Below, piece by piece: positions 14,475-26,925 of a DNA stretch of 27,544 bases. Positions within the stretch are counted from its first letter, which is position 1; each line of letters begins with the position of its first letter. The notes under the pieces are model-generated. The model did no database searches. It was not told where the DNA came from and was given only the letters and a program-made list of their open reading frames with translations. Both the position numbers and the translations under genes were made by a program. This stretch comes from a virus: positions 1 to 27,544 of IMG/VR virus record IMGVR_UViG_3300042125_000027. The stretch is one strand, 5' to 3'.

Positions 14475-17400
14475 GCGTGACGTTGAGCTGATTATCCGGG
14501 CGAAAAACGCTGCCAGCCGCGAGCTGGATGCGGTGACTAAGTCGCTGGAGCGCCTGGACGATCAGCAGACTGCAGTGGGCGAAAGTGCCCGGAAAACGGA
14601 CTCTTTGATCGGGCAACTGGCCGACGAGTTCTCGAAGCTGCAGACCGTCAGCGGAAACCTGAAGTCCCTGGACAAGATCCGTGAGCAAGTGGAACGCTCG
14701 GGCCAAGCTCTGCAGCGTCAGAAGACCGACCTGCAGACGGCCCGCGCCAACCTTCAAGAATTTACCACCGCCCAACAGACGGCGGCCGCATCCTCCAACC
14801 GCCTGCAGAAGGAACTGGCCGAGTCCAGTGCCGCCCTGAAGCAGGAGGCCCAGGCCGTGGCGCAGACCCGCCAGCAGTTCAAGCAGTATGAGCAGGACGC
14901 CCGGCGCGCCGCTGCTGCTGCAGCTGCTGCCGAGAAGGCCCTGGCCGCCGCGCGCCAGCGCTACGCCACGAAGCCCAGCATCTCGAACGAAGCCAACCTG
15001 GTCGAATCCTCGTTGGCGGTGCAGCGCGCTCGTCAGGCGCAGCGGGAAGCCGAGCTGGCCGTGGCCGGCATGACCCAGGCCCTGTCCCGCCAGAACCAGC
15101 AACTGGGCGCCAACCAGAAAGCGAACGCCGAACTGGCCGCAACCCTGAAGACCACGCAGCAGGCAGAGTCTGGCCTGGCCCGAGAGATCGCCCGCACCGA
15201 CGCTGCTATCTCCGCCCAGGGCAGCGAGATCGCCGAGGCCGAGAAGCACTACGCCGAACTGGCGCAGGTGGTCGAGCGCGCAGAGGCGACCTTCCGCCAG
15301 GCTGCCCAGGCCAATGGCGTCGTCGGCCAGTCCGCCGCCCAGGTGGGCCAGCAGCTGACGATCCTGAAGGCGAAGATGCTCGAACTGCAGGCGGCCCAAC
15401 GCAGCATGGGCGCCGGCGTCCGCCCGTTGATCGACGCGCAGTCCATCCGGGACGGCGACGTGGCCTTGCGTGAGGCGACCACCACCATTCGCGCGGCGAC
15501 CAATGCTGCTGCTCGAGGAGAGGTGAGCCTGCGGGAACTCGGCAACGCCGTGGAGCAGACCGCCCGTTCCGCCCAGCAGCTGGACAAGCTCGAGGCCGCG
15601 ATCAGCAAGCAGGGCCAGGCGGTCACCAGCACCCTGGCCGACTGGAAAGCGGCGGAGGCGGAAGTCAAGCGACTGGCCCAAGCCCTGCGCGCTACCGCCC
15701 GCCCCTCCGAGGAACTGGCGGCCGCGTTCGGCAAGGCGCAGGGTCAGGCCAAGGCCGCCAAGGCCGCCTTCCAAGCCGAGGAAGCCGCAGCGGAATCCCT
15801 CAGCGCCTCGCTGCGGGCCGCCGGCATCTCGCACCAGAATCTCAACGAAGCCCAGGCCACCCTGCAGGCGCGCATCGCCAGCGTTCGACAATCCCTGTTG
15901 ACCGGGCGCGCGGCGCTGATCGGCTATGGCGAAGCCGGCGGCGGTGCTGCTCGAGGCTCGCAGAACGCGGCCAACGGCCTGCGGCAGATCCCCGGCGCGG
16001 CCAACCAGGCCAGCAGCAGCTTGAAGGATCTGATTCGCCAGCTCTCCGGCGTGGAACAGCAGGGTCGCCAATCGCTCAGCCTGTTCCAACGCTTCCGGGG
16101 TCAGCTGCTGTCCATCGCCGCGGCGTCCGGCGGTGTGTACGCCGTGCAGTCCGCTCTCCAAGGCGTGGTGCAGGCGCAGCTCTCCCTGGACGCGGTGCAG
16201 TCGCGCTTCTCGGTGGCGTTCGAGGGTGACCAGTCGAAGGTGCAGCGCGCCATGGACTTCACTCGCCAGACCGCCGACGAGCTGGGCCTGGTCTACACCA
16301 CCCTGGCCACCCAGTATTCCAAGCTGGCGGCGGCTTCGCTCGGCACCAACCTCGAGGGCGAGAAGACCGAGCAGATCTTCCGCTCGATTTCCGAGGCGGC
16401 CCGCGTGCTGCGGCTGACCGATGACGAGGTGGCCGGCTCCTTCAAGGCGCTCACCGACATCATCTCGAAAGGCACCATCCAGGCGGAAGAACTCAAGGGC
16501 CAGCTGGGCGACCGATTCCCCGGCGCGGTGCAGATCATGGCGAAGGCGCTCGGCGTGGGCACCGAAGAACTGGCCTCCATGATGGAGCAGGGCCAGCTGA
16601 CCTCGGATTCTCTCGTCGAGTTCGCCGCCGAGATCAAGAAGCGCGTGGCCCCGGCCTTGGGCGAAGCCATCGAGTCGCCGGCCGCCGCGTTCGACCGACT
16701 GCGCAACGCCATCTTCGACGCACAGACCACCATCGCGCAGTCGGGCTTCCTGACCGAACTGGCCAACGGCGCCGAAGACCTGGCCAAGGCCTTGAGCGAC
16801 CCCGCTATCCAGGAAAGCCTGCGCGCCATCGGCAAGGGCCTGGGCGACTTGATTCGACTCGGCGCGGACGTGATCCCCTACATCGAGGAGATCGGCACGG
16901 CCCTGCAGGTGCTGGCCGCCTTCATGGTCGCCCGCTTCGTCGGCGGCGCCCTGGCCGACACCGTCAAGGGCTTCCAGAAGCTGCGCCTGGCCGCGACCTT
17001 CGTGAAGGCGGAACTGCCGCAACTGCTGACCGCGTTCGCCAACCTCTCGACGGCCGCCACTGCTGCGGGCGGCGGGGTCAAGGGCCTGGCCGCCGCCCTC
17101 GCCGGTTCCGGCCTGGTCCGCGCCGGTCTGTGGGGCGTGATCGCCGGCGAGATCTACCTGATCGCCGACGCCGCTTACGAGGCCTACCAGGCTCAGCAGC
17201 AACTGGAGAACTTCCGCACGCAGTCGGCCGCTCAGGGCGCCGCCGCCCAGGACGAGCTGCGGGAGAAGACCGAGGCCTTCGTCCGCGCGCAGGAAGAGGC
17301 TCAGGGCAGCCTGGTGAAAACCGGGGAGCAGGCGAAGACCACCGCCGAGCGGATGGCCGAGCTGGCGGATCGTTCCGCCAAGGCCTACCAGGATGCGACC

Positions 17401-23292: not shown

Positions 23293-24801
23293 GTGGCCAC
23301 CTTCCCGATTCGCAACCGCATTCTCGCCAAGCTCAACCCGGAGACCTACTGGGCCAATGCCAGCCCCGGCGACGTTCCGGATCTGCTCAACGTCTCGGAC
23401 GCCACGCGCGTTCTGCACTACAACGCATCGACCACGGCATACGATCCCGACGAGAACTGGCGCGAGGTTGGCCGGGTCATGACCGGGACGACCGCCCTGG
23501 CGCCCGACTACATGGCCATGCGGCAGGTGTTCACCGGCGGCAAAGCGCTGCTCGTGCAGCTCAACATCCGTGGCGCGTTCTCCTATTCGGGCGGCGTGGC
23601 CAAACGGGATCTGCTTTCCTTGGAGCCGGTCGGCGGCGCCGGAGCCACTGACGACAACGCTTTCGTCCTCACCCTGGTGCAGGAGGAAGCCACGAAGCAG
23701 GCCAAGCTGGTCGGCCAGGTCTACGAATCAGGCGCATGGGGCACGCACAACGAGATCCCCCTGGGCGCCCTGAATGCCAGCGACGACCGAGACCTCTACA
23801 TCCACGTCTACAGCTCCCCGGAAGACGGCACCGTTGTGATCGACCTGGCCACTCCAGGGCACACCATCGAGCAGGCCGCCTACATCTACCAGACCGGCCT
23901 GGACATGCGCCTGGCCCAGTTCAACTCCGCGGACAACCTGGCAGGCAACCGCCCGGACATCGGCTTGCCTCCGGAGACCGGCACTTCGCAGGACGTGGCT
24001 TTCTGCTTCGCCGCGAACCTCCCTGCGCCGTGCACCCAGGATCTGCTGTGGGAGCTGGCCAAGGTGGACCAGATCGCAGCCACGGGCGACTACAACTCGC
24101 CGCTGTGGCCCTACGACAATTCCCGCGCCGAGCTGACCAGCAGCCTGTCCTCCGGCAGCAACCCGGCCATGATCACGTTGCCGTCTGAGCAGCTGAAGAA
24201 ATTCCGCGCTCCGGGCCAGATGGAGAGGGCCTACGTCACCTTGGTCGATCCGGAAGATCCGACGATCAACGAGCGCTGCTGGATGATGAACCTGGACATC
24301 CTGGTCGGCACCATGACCCTGCTGCGCGGGCCCTACGCCTTCAACGACGAGATGCGGGACTGGCCGGCGGGCACCCTCGTTCGCGGCCTGCTGCTCTCCT
24401 CGTTCAACGATCATGTGGTGGGCGGCGAGGAGATCCTGCCGGGCATCATGAGCGACCCGCTGCTCAGCAACGAACCGGTCAAGGTCTATCGCAGCCAGGC
24501 CGCCCTCAACTTCGCCGGTGACACCTGGAAGATTCAGTTCCCCAACGGTCGCGGCCTGATGGTCGAGGAAGTGCTGGTGATCAGTGGCACGGACATTACT
24601 ACCGGCACCTTGAACGTGGGCATCGAGGCCGAGCCGGACGTGGTGCTGACGGAGACCGTGCCTGCGATTGCCGAGGGCGGGGAAGTGTGGGTAGCCTCCG
24701 GGCCGACCAACCGCAAAGCCCGCAACGAACTGGTGGTGACCCTTTCCGGCGGCACGGGCTACGGCTACGTCTGCTTGAAGGGCGCCTTCCAACCCCTCTA
24801 A
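23293..24801 (+). CDS. Virion structural protein, tail-tip region, function unknown
   Basis: 502 residues starting at GTG 23293, with AGGAG at 23279-23283 nine bases upstream in a 30-base gap. The N-terminus (FPIRNRILAKLNPETYWANASPG) is short and polar. The body is mixed, with strands and acidic loops (VIDLATPGHTIEQAAYIYQTG, ERCWMMNLDILVGTMTLLRGP, WPAGTLVRGLLLSS). The C-terminal 100 residues look like a beta sandwich (WKIQFPNGRGLMVEEVLVIS, GTLNVGIEAEPDVVLTETV, RNELVVTLSGGTGYGYV). I do not recognise a family. It lies just upstream of the hub-like gene and probably contributes to the tail tip. Confidence 0.58.
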   Translation: MATFPIRNRILAKLNPETYWANASPGDVPDLLNVSDATRVLHYNASTTAYDPDENWREVGRVMTGTTALAPDYMAMRQVFTGGKALLVQLNIRGAFSYSGGVAKRDLLSLEPVGGAGATDDNAFVLTLVQEEATKQAKLVGQVYESGAWGTHNEIPLGALNASDDRDLYIHVYSSPEDGTVVIDLATPGHTIEQAAYIYQTGLDMRLAQFNSADNLAGNRPDIGLPPETGTSQDVAFCFAANLPAPCTQDLLWELAKVDQIAATGDYNSPLWPYDNSRAELTSSLSSGSNPAMITLPSEQLKKFRAPGQMERAYVTLVDPEDPTINERCWMMNLDILVGTMTLLRGPYAFNDEMRDWPAGTLVRGLLLSSFNDHVVGGEEILPGIMSDPLLSNEPVKVYRSQAALNFAGDTWKIQFPNGRGLMVEEVLVISGTDITTGTLNVGIEAEPDVVLTETVPAIAEGGEVWVASGPTNRKARNELVVTLSGGTGYGYVCLKGAFQPL

Positions 24802-24813
24802 CCGGAGCCCGCC

Positions 24814-26424
24814 ATGGAGCTGAATTCCGGTCTGCTGAATGAGAGCGGCCTCAACGACGCGGGCGGGGCCGGCGGCCCGACACCCCCCGGTTTGCTGGTC
24901 GTCCAGGAGCACGAGGCCACCTGGTCGCTTCGGCCGCAGATCCAAGCCTGGCACGAGGCGCGCTGGGAACCCCTGGGCCGAATCGCCCAGTGGCACGAGG
25001 CCTTGTTCGGCGCGGTTATCACGGGCTACCACGAGGCGCGCTGGGGCTTCTCCATCGACACGGCCTACCACGTCGCTCCGTATTCGCTGCGCCCGCTGAT
25101 CAGCCAGCAGCACGAAGCCCGCTTCGACCTGGATCTCCTGCAGGAGGTTGGCCAGCAGCACGAAGCCCGTTGGTCGTCGCCGGTCAGCCAGCAGCACGAA
25201 GCCCGTTGGTCGATGCGCGCCAAGGTCGAGCGCCACCACGAAGCAACCTGGTCGCAGACCAACCCGGTCGCCCAGCAGCACGAAGTCCTGTTCGACCTGA
25301 TGCTGCGCAACCCGGTGCGGCGAGGCCACTTGGCCCCGTACAGCATGCTCTCCGCCGTGGTGCAGAACATCACCGGCGCGCCCTACGTGATCAAGGACGG
25401 CCGCCAGGTCGGGATCTCGGGCGCGGACTTCTCGTGCGCGGAGGACGGCTACGCCTGGACCTGCAATGTCGACTTGACCGCGATCCCCGACTACCAGGAT
25501 TTCCAGCGCGACGATCTCTTCGCCGTGGTGCTGTTTGGCGACAGCTACATCTTCATGATGGACTCGAAGGGAATCTCGCGGCCGGGTCCGGCGCAGGCCA
25601 CCATGTCGGTCAACGGCATCAGCCCGGCCGCCTGGCTGGACCGCCCTCGAGCGACCTTGATCTCGAAGACCTGGGATACGCCGACCATGGCGCAGGACAT
25701 CGCGCTCGAGGTCTGCGGCACGGTGAACCTGGACTGGCAGATCTACGACTGGCTGATCCCCGCCGGCCGCCTGGCAGTGAACGACGCGACCCCGCTCTCC
25801 GTGCTCCAGCAACTGGCGACGGCGGCAGGCGCCGTGGTCGAGGCGGACACGCAGGGCGGTATCGTGGTGCGGCCGGAGTTCCCGGTGTCGGTGCCCGACT
25901 GGGAATCGGCGACTCCGGATCACGTCTTCTCGGATCTGCCGGACAACATCTCGATGCGTGAAGGCGTGGCCGCGGCGGACCACTTCAACCGGTTCTACCT
26001 GGCCGACATGGCAGCCGGCAGCACGAACGATCGTATCGAGTTCGAGGCCGATGAAGGCAACGCCTACGCCGGCACGCTGCGCGTCTATCCCGGCACCTGG
26101 CGCACCAACCTGGTGGTCACCAGCACCCGCGACGGGGTGATCCTGGTCCCTGCTGGCGTGCAGTACCGGGAAGAGGAAGAGACTATCGAGATCACCCAGG
26201 GCACCGGGCAGACGGCGTTCCCGATTGACGCTATCCTCAGCACCGAATGGCTCGACCGAGATCTCGGCGCGGTGTCCTTCGTCAACTACACGAACGTCGT
26301 GACGGTACCGGGTACCGGCGACCGGTACAGCCTGCTGAAGATCCGCTACCGGACGAAGGCCCTGGTTTACCGGGCCGAATATGCCGAGAATGGCGAAGCT
26401 CAATTCCTGGTGGAGGAAGTCTGA
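24814..26424 (+). CDS. Tail hub-like protein with N-terminal HEARW repeats
   Basis: 536 residues. After a short Gly/Pro-rich start, residues 33-176 carry eleven copies of an H-[E/V/L]-[A/V]-x-[W/F/Y] motif spaced 12-16 residues (H33, 47, 61, 73, 86, 100, 116, 128, 142, 156, 172). From about 185 the protein changes to a globular region with features of phage tail or baseplate hub proteins: GADFSCAEDGYAWTCNVDL, NGISPAAWLDRPRA, and ATPLSVLQQLATAAGAVVE followed by GGIVVRPEFPV, a pattern like 'helix then reference-frame strand' in gp27-type hubs. The hub call is moderate and based on that pattern and on the small tail-tip genes that follow. The next gene starts directly after its TGA. Confidence 0.6.
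   Translation: MELNSGLLNESGLNDAGGAGGPTPPGLLVVQEHEATWSLRPQIQAWHEARWEPLGRIAQWHEALFGAVITGYHEARWGFSIDTAYHVAPYSLRPLISQQHEARFDLDLLQEVGQQHEARWSSPVSQQHEARWSMRAKVERHHEATWSQTNPVAQQHEVLFDLMLRNPVRRGHLAPYSMLSAVVQNITGAPYVIKDGRQVGISGADFSCAEDGYAWTCNVDLTAIPDYQDFQRDDLFAVVLFGDSYIFMMDSKGISRPGPAQATMSVNGISPAAWLDRPRATLISKTWDTPTMAQDIALEVCGTVNLDWQIYDWLIPAGRLAVNDATPLSVLQQLATAAGAVVEADTQGGIVVRPEFPVSVPDWESATPDHVFSDLPDNISMREGVAAADHFNRFYLADMAAGSTNDRIEFEADEGNAYAGTLRVYPGTWRTNLVVTSTRDGVILVPAGVQYREEEETIEITQGTGQTAFPIDAILSTEWLDRDLGAVSFVNYTNVVTVPGTGDRYSLLKIRYRTKALVYRAEYAENGEAQFLVEEV
24910..25341 (+). repeat. Array of eleven HEARW-type coding repeats
   Basis: Protein repeats of about 14 residues within the hub-like gene (residues 33-176). 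Strongest copies read HEARW, HEARF or HEATW; degenerate ones read HEALF, HEVLF, HVAPY and HLAPY. Four copies also share a near-identical DNA core CCAGCAGCACGAAG beginning at 25104, 25152, 25188 and 25272. The pair at 25152 and 25188 is identical for 25 bases and exactly 36 bases apart, suggesting recent in-frame duplication. Confidence 0.85.
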
Positions 26425-26925
26425 ATGGCGGTCACCGCTTCTCTTGTCGTCCAGTTTGGCTCGGACGCTGCCGACGACGCGCTGCTGATCGCCGAGGTCG
26501 ACAACCGAGATCTCTCGGAGGGCGGGCTCAACAACGGCCGCACCCAGTTCCTGCCCGGCGATACGGTCTTCTACCTGGTCTACAAGTACAAGCTGAGCAG
26601 CACCGAGCACCGCAGCAGCGCCGGCACCATCTCCGCCAGCGGCATCGGCCAGCGCCAGGTCGAGGAGGTCGTGACCTTCTTCGACACGCAGGAAGGTTCG
26701 GTGCGGTATCCGATCTACACCATCGACAGCGTCGAATGGCTGGGCAATAATCTCGGCGCCATCTCGGCCTCCGGCGGACAATCCATCCGTGCCGCTACCG
26801 CCGGGGTCGGGGTGGCCATCGTCAAGTACACCACCAAGTACGACGTCTTCCGGCTCAACTCCCCCTCCCAGATCAACGGCCGCGATTCCTTCGACATCGC
26901 GATCCTGGTCATCGGTAAACCGTAA
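26425..26925 (+). CDS. Small tail-tip structural protein, function unknown
   Basis: 166 residues, beginning immediately after the hub-like gene's stop with a GGAGGAAG ribosome-binding site inside that gene. The protein is predicted all-beta (ASLVVQFGSD, TQFLPGDTVFYLVYKYKLSS, QVEEVVTFFD, YPIYTIDSVEWLG, GVGVAIVKYTTKYDVFRL, FDIAILVIGKP) with a glycine/serine-rich middle. No cysteine and no membrane segment. Its final TAA overlaps the next ATG. It is clearly a translated gene by codon use and packing, but I do not recognise its family. Confidence 0.58.
   Translation: MAVTASLVVQFGSDAADDALLIAEVDNRDLSEGGLNNGRTQFLPGDTVFYLVYKYKLSSTEHRSSAGTISASGIGQRQVEEVVTFFDTQEGSVRYPIYTIDSVEWLGNNLGAISASGGQSIRAATAGVGVAIVKYTTKYDVFRLNSPSQINGRDSFDIAILVIGKP

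Follow-up and report, generated by a model that had tools for sequence, protein, structure and literature searches.

A phage tail hub protein with an N-terminal array of histidine-flavoured repeats that appear to represent a widespread, unnamed repeat

Our analysis suggests that the array of histidine motifs at the N-terminus of a phage tail hub protein is one chemical flavour (His) of a widespread, unnamed structural repeat, whose pattern and spacing can be recognised in many phages and prophages. The protein is encoded in a 27,544-nucleotide stretch of viral DNA, which was analysed as a whole and is hereafter called the window. The explanation towards which we lean, with slightly better than even confidence, is that the array is a His-flavoured repeat of about 14 residues, whose stacked units form a folded N-terminal arm or stalk on the hub.

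The motif array is far beyond chance. The 536-residue protein contains 11 H-x-[A/V]-x-[W/F/Y] motifs, while 20,000 shuffles of the whole protein gave a mean count of 0.26 and a maximum of 4, confirming the eleven-copy His/aromatic array described in an earlier, sequence-only reading of this DNA. The motifs start at residues 33, 47, 61, 73, 86, 100, 116, 128, 142, 156 and 172 (the starts span nucleotides 24910 to 25341), occupy residues 33-176 and are spaced, from the N- to the C-terminus, by 14, 14, 12, 13, 14, 16, 12, 14, 14 and 16 residues. Twelve of the 14 histidines of the protein lie within this segment (residues 33, 47, 61, 73, 86, 100, 116, 128, 141, 142, 156 and 172); no pair of them is two residues apart, and thus the H-x-H motif is absent. 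The sequence-only reading had also reported two copies identical over 25 bases. The exact repeat exists but is one base longer: it is the longest in the array, with 26 bases and an offset of 36 nt, corresponding to one 12-residue unit (Table 1). Just units 7 and 8 are nearly identical at the DNA level. Tandem Repeats Finder did not report the array, because the copies are too diverged and their spacing is variable. Note that the tape measure gene of the window also has an imperfect tandem repeat, of 26-27 nt, at 16139-16207.

Table 1. Features of the hub gene and its repeat array (positions in the window)
Feature	Position	Strand	Basis
Tail hub protein, 536 aa: N-terminal repeat array and Mu gp44/gp27-type hub	24814..26424	+	PHROG matches, structure matches
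Repeat array, residues 30-187: 11 HxAx(W/F/Y) units and hub junction	24901..25374	+	motif count, relatives
Outer seven units, anchors 33, 47, 61, 73, 86, 100, 116; unit number differs among relatives	24901..25185	+	
Hub-proximal four units, anchors 128, 142, 156, 172, gaps 14, 14, 16; spacing constant across relatives	25186..25374	+	
Penultimate hub-side unit, contains FDLxxxxPV	within 25186..25374	+	
26-nt exact repeat, copy 1	25151..25176	+	
26-nt exact repeat, copy 2	25187..25212	+	
Canonical hub core, residues 188-365; model residue 188 opposite Mu gp44 residue 3	25375..25908	+	
Hub C-terminal part, residues 366-536, phrog_24698; domain common with next ORF	25909..26424	+	

The protein had been called hub-like from its sequence, and this assignment was supported by both profile and structure comparisons. 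In the PHROG scan, it matched phrog_6079 ('tail protein'; 8e-23, residues 194-380) and phrog_24698 (1e-46, residues 211-536); the Pfam and NCBIfam scans of the whole 536 residues gave no family match. AlphaFold2, run on the whole protein with 27 sequences of relatives, produced a model in which residues ~190-357 and ~405-536 are well folded. Residues 187-365 of this model aligned with Mu gp44 (1wru; Foldseek E 1e-7, VIA Z 14.3) and with the MuSo2 tail protein (3cdd; VIA Z 14.4), that is, with the core of the trimeric hub family of Mu gp44, T4 gp27 and VgrG, at a Z of about 14. Judged by the model, the window protein is a gp27/Mu gp44-type tail hub. Since the canonical hub fold starts at residue ~188, the array is an addition before a complete hub of this type. 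In agreement with this, Mu gp44 begins in the alignment where the window hub reaches residue ~188 and, unlike the window protein, has no N-terminal repeat array. By analogy with Mu gp44 and T4 gp27, the hub would be a trimer, so that each virion would carry three arrays.

The gene context also fits the hub family, because the hub ORF lies downstream of a TMP_3 tape measure ORF, among virion tail genes. One homologue of the window hub, ORF28 of the Pseudoalteromonas phage B8b, was detected by MS in purified virions (PMC4294664, Table 1); the N-terminus of the B8b hub did not score as this repeat with our repeat profile. The 166-aa ORF that follows the hub (26425-26925) shares 29% identity with residues 436-521 of the hub (E 3.8e-5), and adjacent genes thus appear to contain a duplication of the hub C-terminal domain. 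The upstream ORF (23293-24801, 502 aa) had no family match and resembles its counterpart in the closest relative, L001, in a central stretch only (33% over 113 residues); at the sequence level, such variability is as would be expected for a variable receptor-binding protein.

The homologous hubs found by profile searches came from 33 viral contigs, 19 bacterial contigs and 32 records of Vibrio siphophages, plus a few more. Where the N-terminus is intact, most of these relatives have an array, made of units of 12-17 residues, that immediately precedes the hub or is encoded by the upstream ORF. The unit has a consensus of ~14 residues, with an aliphatic residue at position -4, an array-specific residue (the anchor) at position 0, A or Q at +2, often P at +3, Y, W or F at +4 and G, S, D or N at +5. 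The residues used differ by relative: F-x-S-x-Y in the Vibrio phages, FEAPYSLRGLVPAE in L024, LEQYYGSADLLRR in L028 and W-x-L-P-F in L048. Repeats were scored with a position-specific profile and a spacing-constrained chain, and compared with shuffled sequences. The window array obtained a chain score of 156, against a shuffle maximum of 21, and most of the relatives' arrays were likewise far above their shuffles; the profile was trained partly on the same arrays, and these scores are a description and not an independent test. None of the other window ORFs tested as negative controls scored above its own shuffles. In the window, the units abut the hub core and end in gaps of 14, 14 and 16, in line with the rule (14 or 15, then 16) by which a hub repeat was recognised.

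The hubs of the Vibrio siphophages (SIO-2, VHS1 and the VH2_2019 group) and of B8b belong to the window hub family, with 22-31% identity. Several of the Vibrio hubs have 4-6 F-x-S-x-Y-type units directly before the hub, with final gaps of 14 and 16 as in the window. These arrays differ from that of the window in having fewer units and Phe in place of His, and several of them, too degenerate to be recognised by the repeat profile, were assigned by eye. Distant arrays are alike in pattern and spacing, without strong sequence scores. In the same N-terminal place, the distant hubs L078, L079, L080 and that of the Acidovorax phage ACF1 (L101) have a W-Q-[D/E]-A type repeat of ~14 residues, on which the profile gave a modest score for L080 only and none for ACF1. 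The hub of L009 (4148-7093) has an additional N-terminal part, with GVVGSLALTGN-type repeats, ahead of its H/N-type array.

When the gaps of 21 representative arrays were counted from the hub, a constant ladder appeared: the last gap is 16 and the third-last is 14 in all 21, with a value of 14 or 15 for the second-last. Over the last three gaps, agreement was 0.84 with counting from the hub side and 0.33 with counting from the outer side; shuffles gave 0.30 (maximum 0.45). Note that in 5 arrays the chain overran into the hub by one or two units, and the surplus gaps were removed by hand before counting; note also that the chain algorithm slightly prefers 14, a bias that cannot produce 16 in every array. 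Inheritance of the last four units together with the hub is the simplest cause of the ladder. Over the whole arrays, spacing is even in 80% of the gaps. The sequence-only reading had stated that the spacers vary. This is correct for their length but not for their order, which is conserved: unrelated arrays share their hub-side gaps, and the closest hub, L001 (52% identity), shares the array without any indel over residues 33-185.

Most arrays have a single residue type at the anchor. It is always His in the window and in L025, nearly always Phe in L024 and Leu in L023, Leu in L045, Trp in L048, and His or Asn in L009. The mutual information between protein and residue peaked at positions 0 and +2, with a z of about 26. 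In-register stacking of the units would explain one anchor residue per array; concerted evolution over longer times is a possible alternative cause of this uniformity. The earlier statement that the histidine is kept is thus valid within one group of relatives only. Between the window and L001, conservation alternates along the unit, with 91% at position 0, 64% at -4, +2 and +5, 0% at +3 and 9% at +7. The eleven evenly placed histidines, retained in L001 at 91% of the anchor positions, could be taken as metal sites, like those of metal-bound phage spikes and as the sequence-only reading had suggested. However, Leu, Phe or Trp occupies the anchor before homologous hubs (His/Asn in L009), and the array has none of the His-x-His motifs found in the HxH metal-bound spikes and needles (gp37 tip, gp5C-type, gpV, gp138). 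We consider this explanation very improbable. A metal-binding needle as the main role was rejected; metal binding is unlikely to be the purpose of the array, and is disfavoured for the window's own clade.

Arrays gain and lose whole units. The L001 and L008 proteins (75% identical) are set apart by exactly one unit, of 15 residues, close to the outer end, and the proteins of the Aeromonas phages BUCT552 and PhAER-6 are 56 residues apart overall, which is exactly four 14-residue units. Among homologous hubs, arrays go from 4 units (L033) to 34 (L051); repeat number, whose comparison among relatives the sequence-only reading had proposed, is therefore not constant. These whole-unit changes agree with the proposed growth by in-frame duplication, but a recent expansion in this phage is mostly rejected, since the window and L001 share the same 11 units in one order (unit-by-unit similarity, p = 0.003). 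Moreover, when compared with L001, L008, L009 and L046, the window units are more similar to the unit in the corresponding position than to the rest (p 0.003 to 0.04); no such match by position was found to L024 or L045. Thus, the order of the units is old within that set, and the uniformity of the array is not simply the product of recent duplication. In the 34-unit array of L051 (5252-6754), the spacing order 14,13,12,12,13,17,17,14,14 is present twice, which suggests that a block of some ten units was duplicated.

AlphaFold2 gave no confident model of the array, either in the whole window protein (27 sequences) or with the array of the relative L023 (12 mostly in-register sequences): the pLDDT was about 30-50 and the elements drawn were low-confidence helices. 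Since the low-confidence elements are helices, a beta stack has no support from the prediction. Most arrays have a hydrophobic periodicity of 180 degrees, but in the L023/L028/L029 group several members have one of about 90-105 degrees, suggesting strands in most arrays and a mixed picture in the L023/L028 group. An obligate trimer would account for the failure of the monomer prediction, a conjecture on our part. Foldseek rows listing families without the array were not counted as evidence of a new fold. The very low confidence would also agree with a flexible, unfolded linker. This we find scarcely credible, because the array is rich in aromatic residues, low in Gly and near-neutral, and because it shows alternating conservation, the fixed spacing ladder and purifying selection: the comparison of L001 with L008 gave a dN/dS of about 0.20 for the array and of 0.14 for the hub (rough ratios, as dS is near 1), and therefore both are under purifying selection. 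The stacked or solenoid-like structure proposed in the sequence-only reading is, from these patterns, plausible.

As that reading had stated, no named domain with this pattern was found. Pfam (E up to 1) and NCBIfam searches over array residues 30-187 gave no named repeat or domain, and sequence searches of the solved structures with the window, BUCT552, L024 and L057 arrays and with whole KVP40 gp15 gave no credible match on any array, the matches of KVP40 gp15 being limited to its T4 gp15 part. Among the PHROGs, phrog_6079 alone touches the window array, weakly (0.039). Repeats of 14 and 15 residues are present in trimeric fibres, in the left-handed beta-roll of the YadA head and in the adenovirus-type triple beta-spiral. 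The window array is similar to these in repeat length, but had no Pfam match to such families, the YadA-type 14-residue head repeat included (E up to 1). The open-licence literature on 14-residue phage tail repeats contained no description of this repeat, although an earlier account elsewhere is possible. The repeat module and its rules thus appear to be undescribed, while repeat-bearing tail proteins themselves are common.

The repeat also occurs in other positions. In the Magnetococcales loci, the array has an ORF of its own, immediately upstream of the hub ORF, and in 5 of the 6 loci checked the two ORFs overlap at an ATGA; from the aligned positions, the C-terminus of this separate product appears to cover the first strand of the hub. 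In the Casjensviridae (Chi-like) Aeromonas phages BUCT552, PhAER-6 and vB_C4, tail proteins have 15-25 copies of a 14-residue unit, QAELLAPYNLRSTV, that fits the repeat profile. Unlike the window array, these are C-terminal, on a different hub-type tail protein (Phage-tail_3, PF13550), with almost uniform 14-residue spacing and nearly identical units. No locus was confirmed when the viral contigs were scanned with the BUCT552 array, and low complexity is the probable reason. Finally, the tail completion protein gp15 of KVP40 (L100, 814-2166) has a C-terminal extension, absent from T4 gp15, of at least eleven 14-residue units of x-D-W type. This extension matches the hub family phrog_6079, at positions 42-191 in its N-terminal half (2.7e-9), a sequence match that would link it independently to the hub arrays; unlike the window array, it follows the T4-type gp15 domain of a tail completion protein, and its likeness to the hub arrays may reflect homology or convergence.

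The presence of the repeat on KVP40 gp15, and the overlap of the split array and hub genes as if translationally coupled, would agree with a sleeve or assembly element that wraps or braces the tail tip (the neck in KVP40-like phages) without direct host contact. We regard this as unlikely: a variation from 4 to 34 units is hard to fit with the wrapping of a body of fixed size, and the outer end of some arrays bears lectin-like domains. These are LamG in L030 and L060 and in the separate array protein of L057 (9e-21 and 2.4e-16), and SPRY in L032 (2.4e-8). L026 gave a weak, below-cutoff discoidin-like match, and the L048 sequence also suggests a discoidin-like domain. Since most array-bearing hubs, including that of the window, have no recognisable fused lectin-like domain, a display function is not direct for them.

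The array could instead be the receptor binder itself, with a weak site for a saccharide or surface protein in each unit and the copy number setting avidity. The exposed tail-tip context, an aromatic residue in nearly every unit, quick copy-number change and the faster evolution of the array compared to the hub (37% against 51-58% identity between the window and L001) are in its favour. We nevertheless judge it improbable, since the anchor and its same-parity neighbours are conserved and the alternate positions are free, as expected of a core, since the conserved hub-side spacing suggests a structure and not independent sites, and since the lectin-like domains at the outer end in relatives would be unnecessary.

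In the arm or stalk that we prefer, the units would stack in register, so that equivalent residues would touch and change together, and the anchor His would be a packing residue of the stack and not a dedicated ligand. The four hub-side units would dock on the hub, and the outer units would form a stalk of adjustable length, displaying or positioning a receptor-binding part. In this phage that part would be a separate protein, for example the product of ORF 23293-24801, while in relatives the arm would bear a host-contact domain at its outer end. More tentatively, and only as a possibility, the arrays may constitute an unnamed class of tail repeat: a tight stack whose anchor swaps en bloc (His, Phe, Leu or Trp), with a fixed hub-side ladder, mobile as a module among the hub N- or C-terminus, a separate gene and a neck protein, and serving as an arm of adjustable length for host-contact domains.

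Descriptions of tail hubs usually centre on the core fold, and 'hypothetical' is the only annotation given to the variable regions at the N-terminus of the hubs in this group. Our results suggest that many of these regions are one repeat module with its own rules, namely even spacing, a hub-side ladder, one residue type per array, gain and loss of units at the outer side and, in some, a lectin-like cap. The repeat profile offers a search tool for this module, with the prediction that arm length varies in 14-residue steps.
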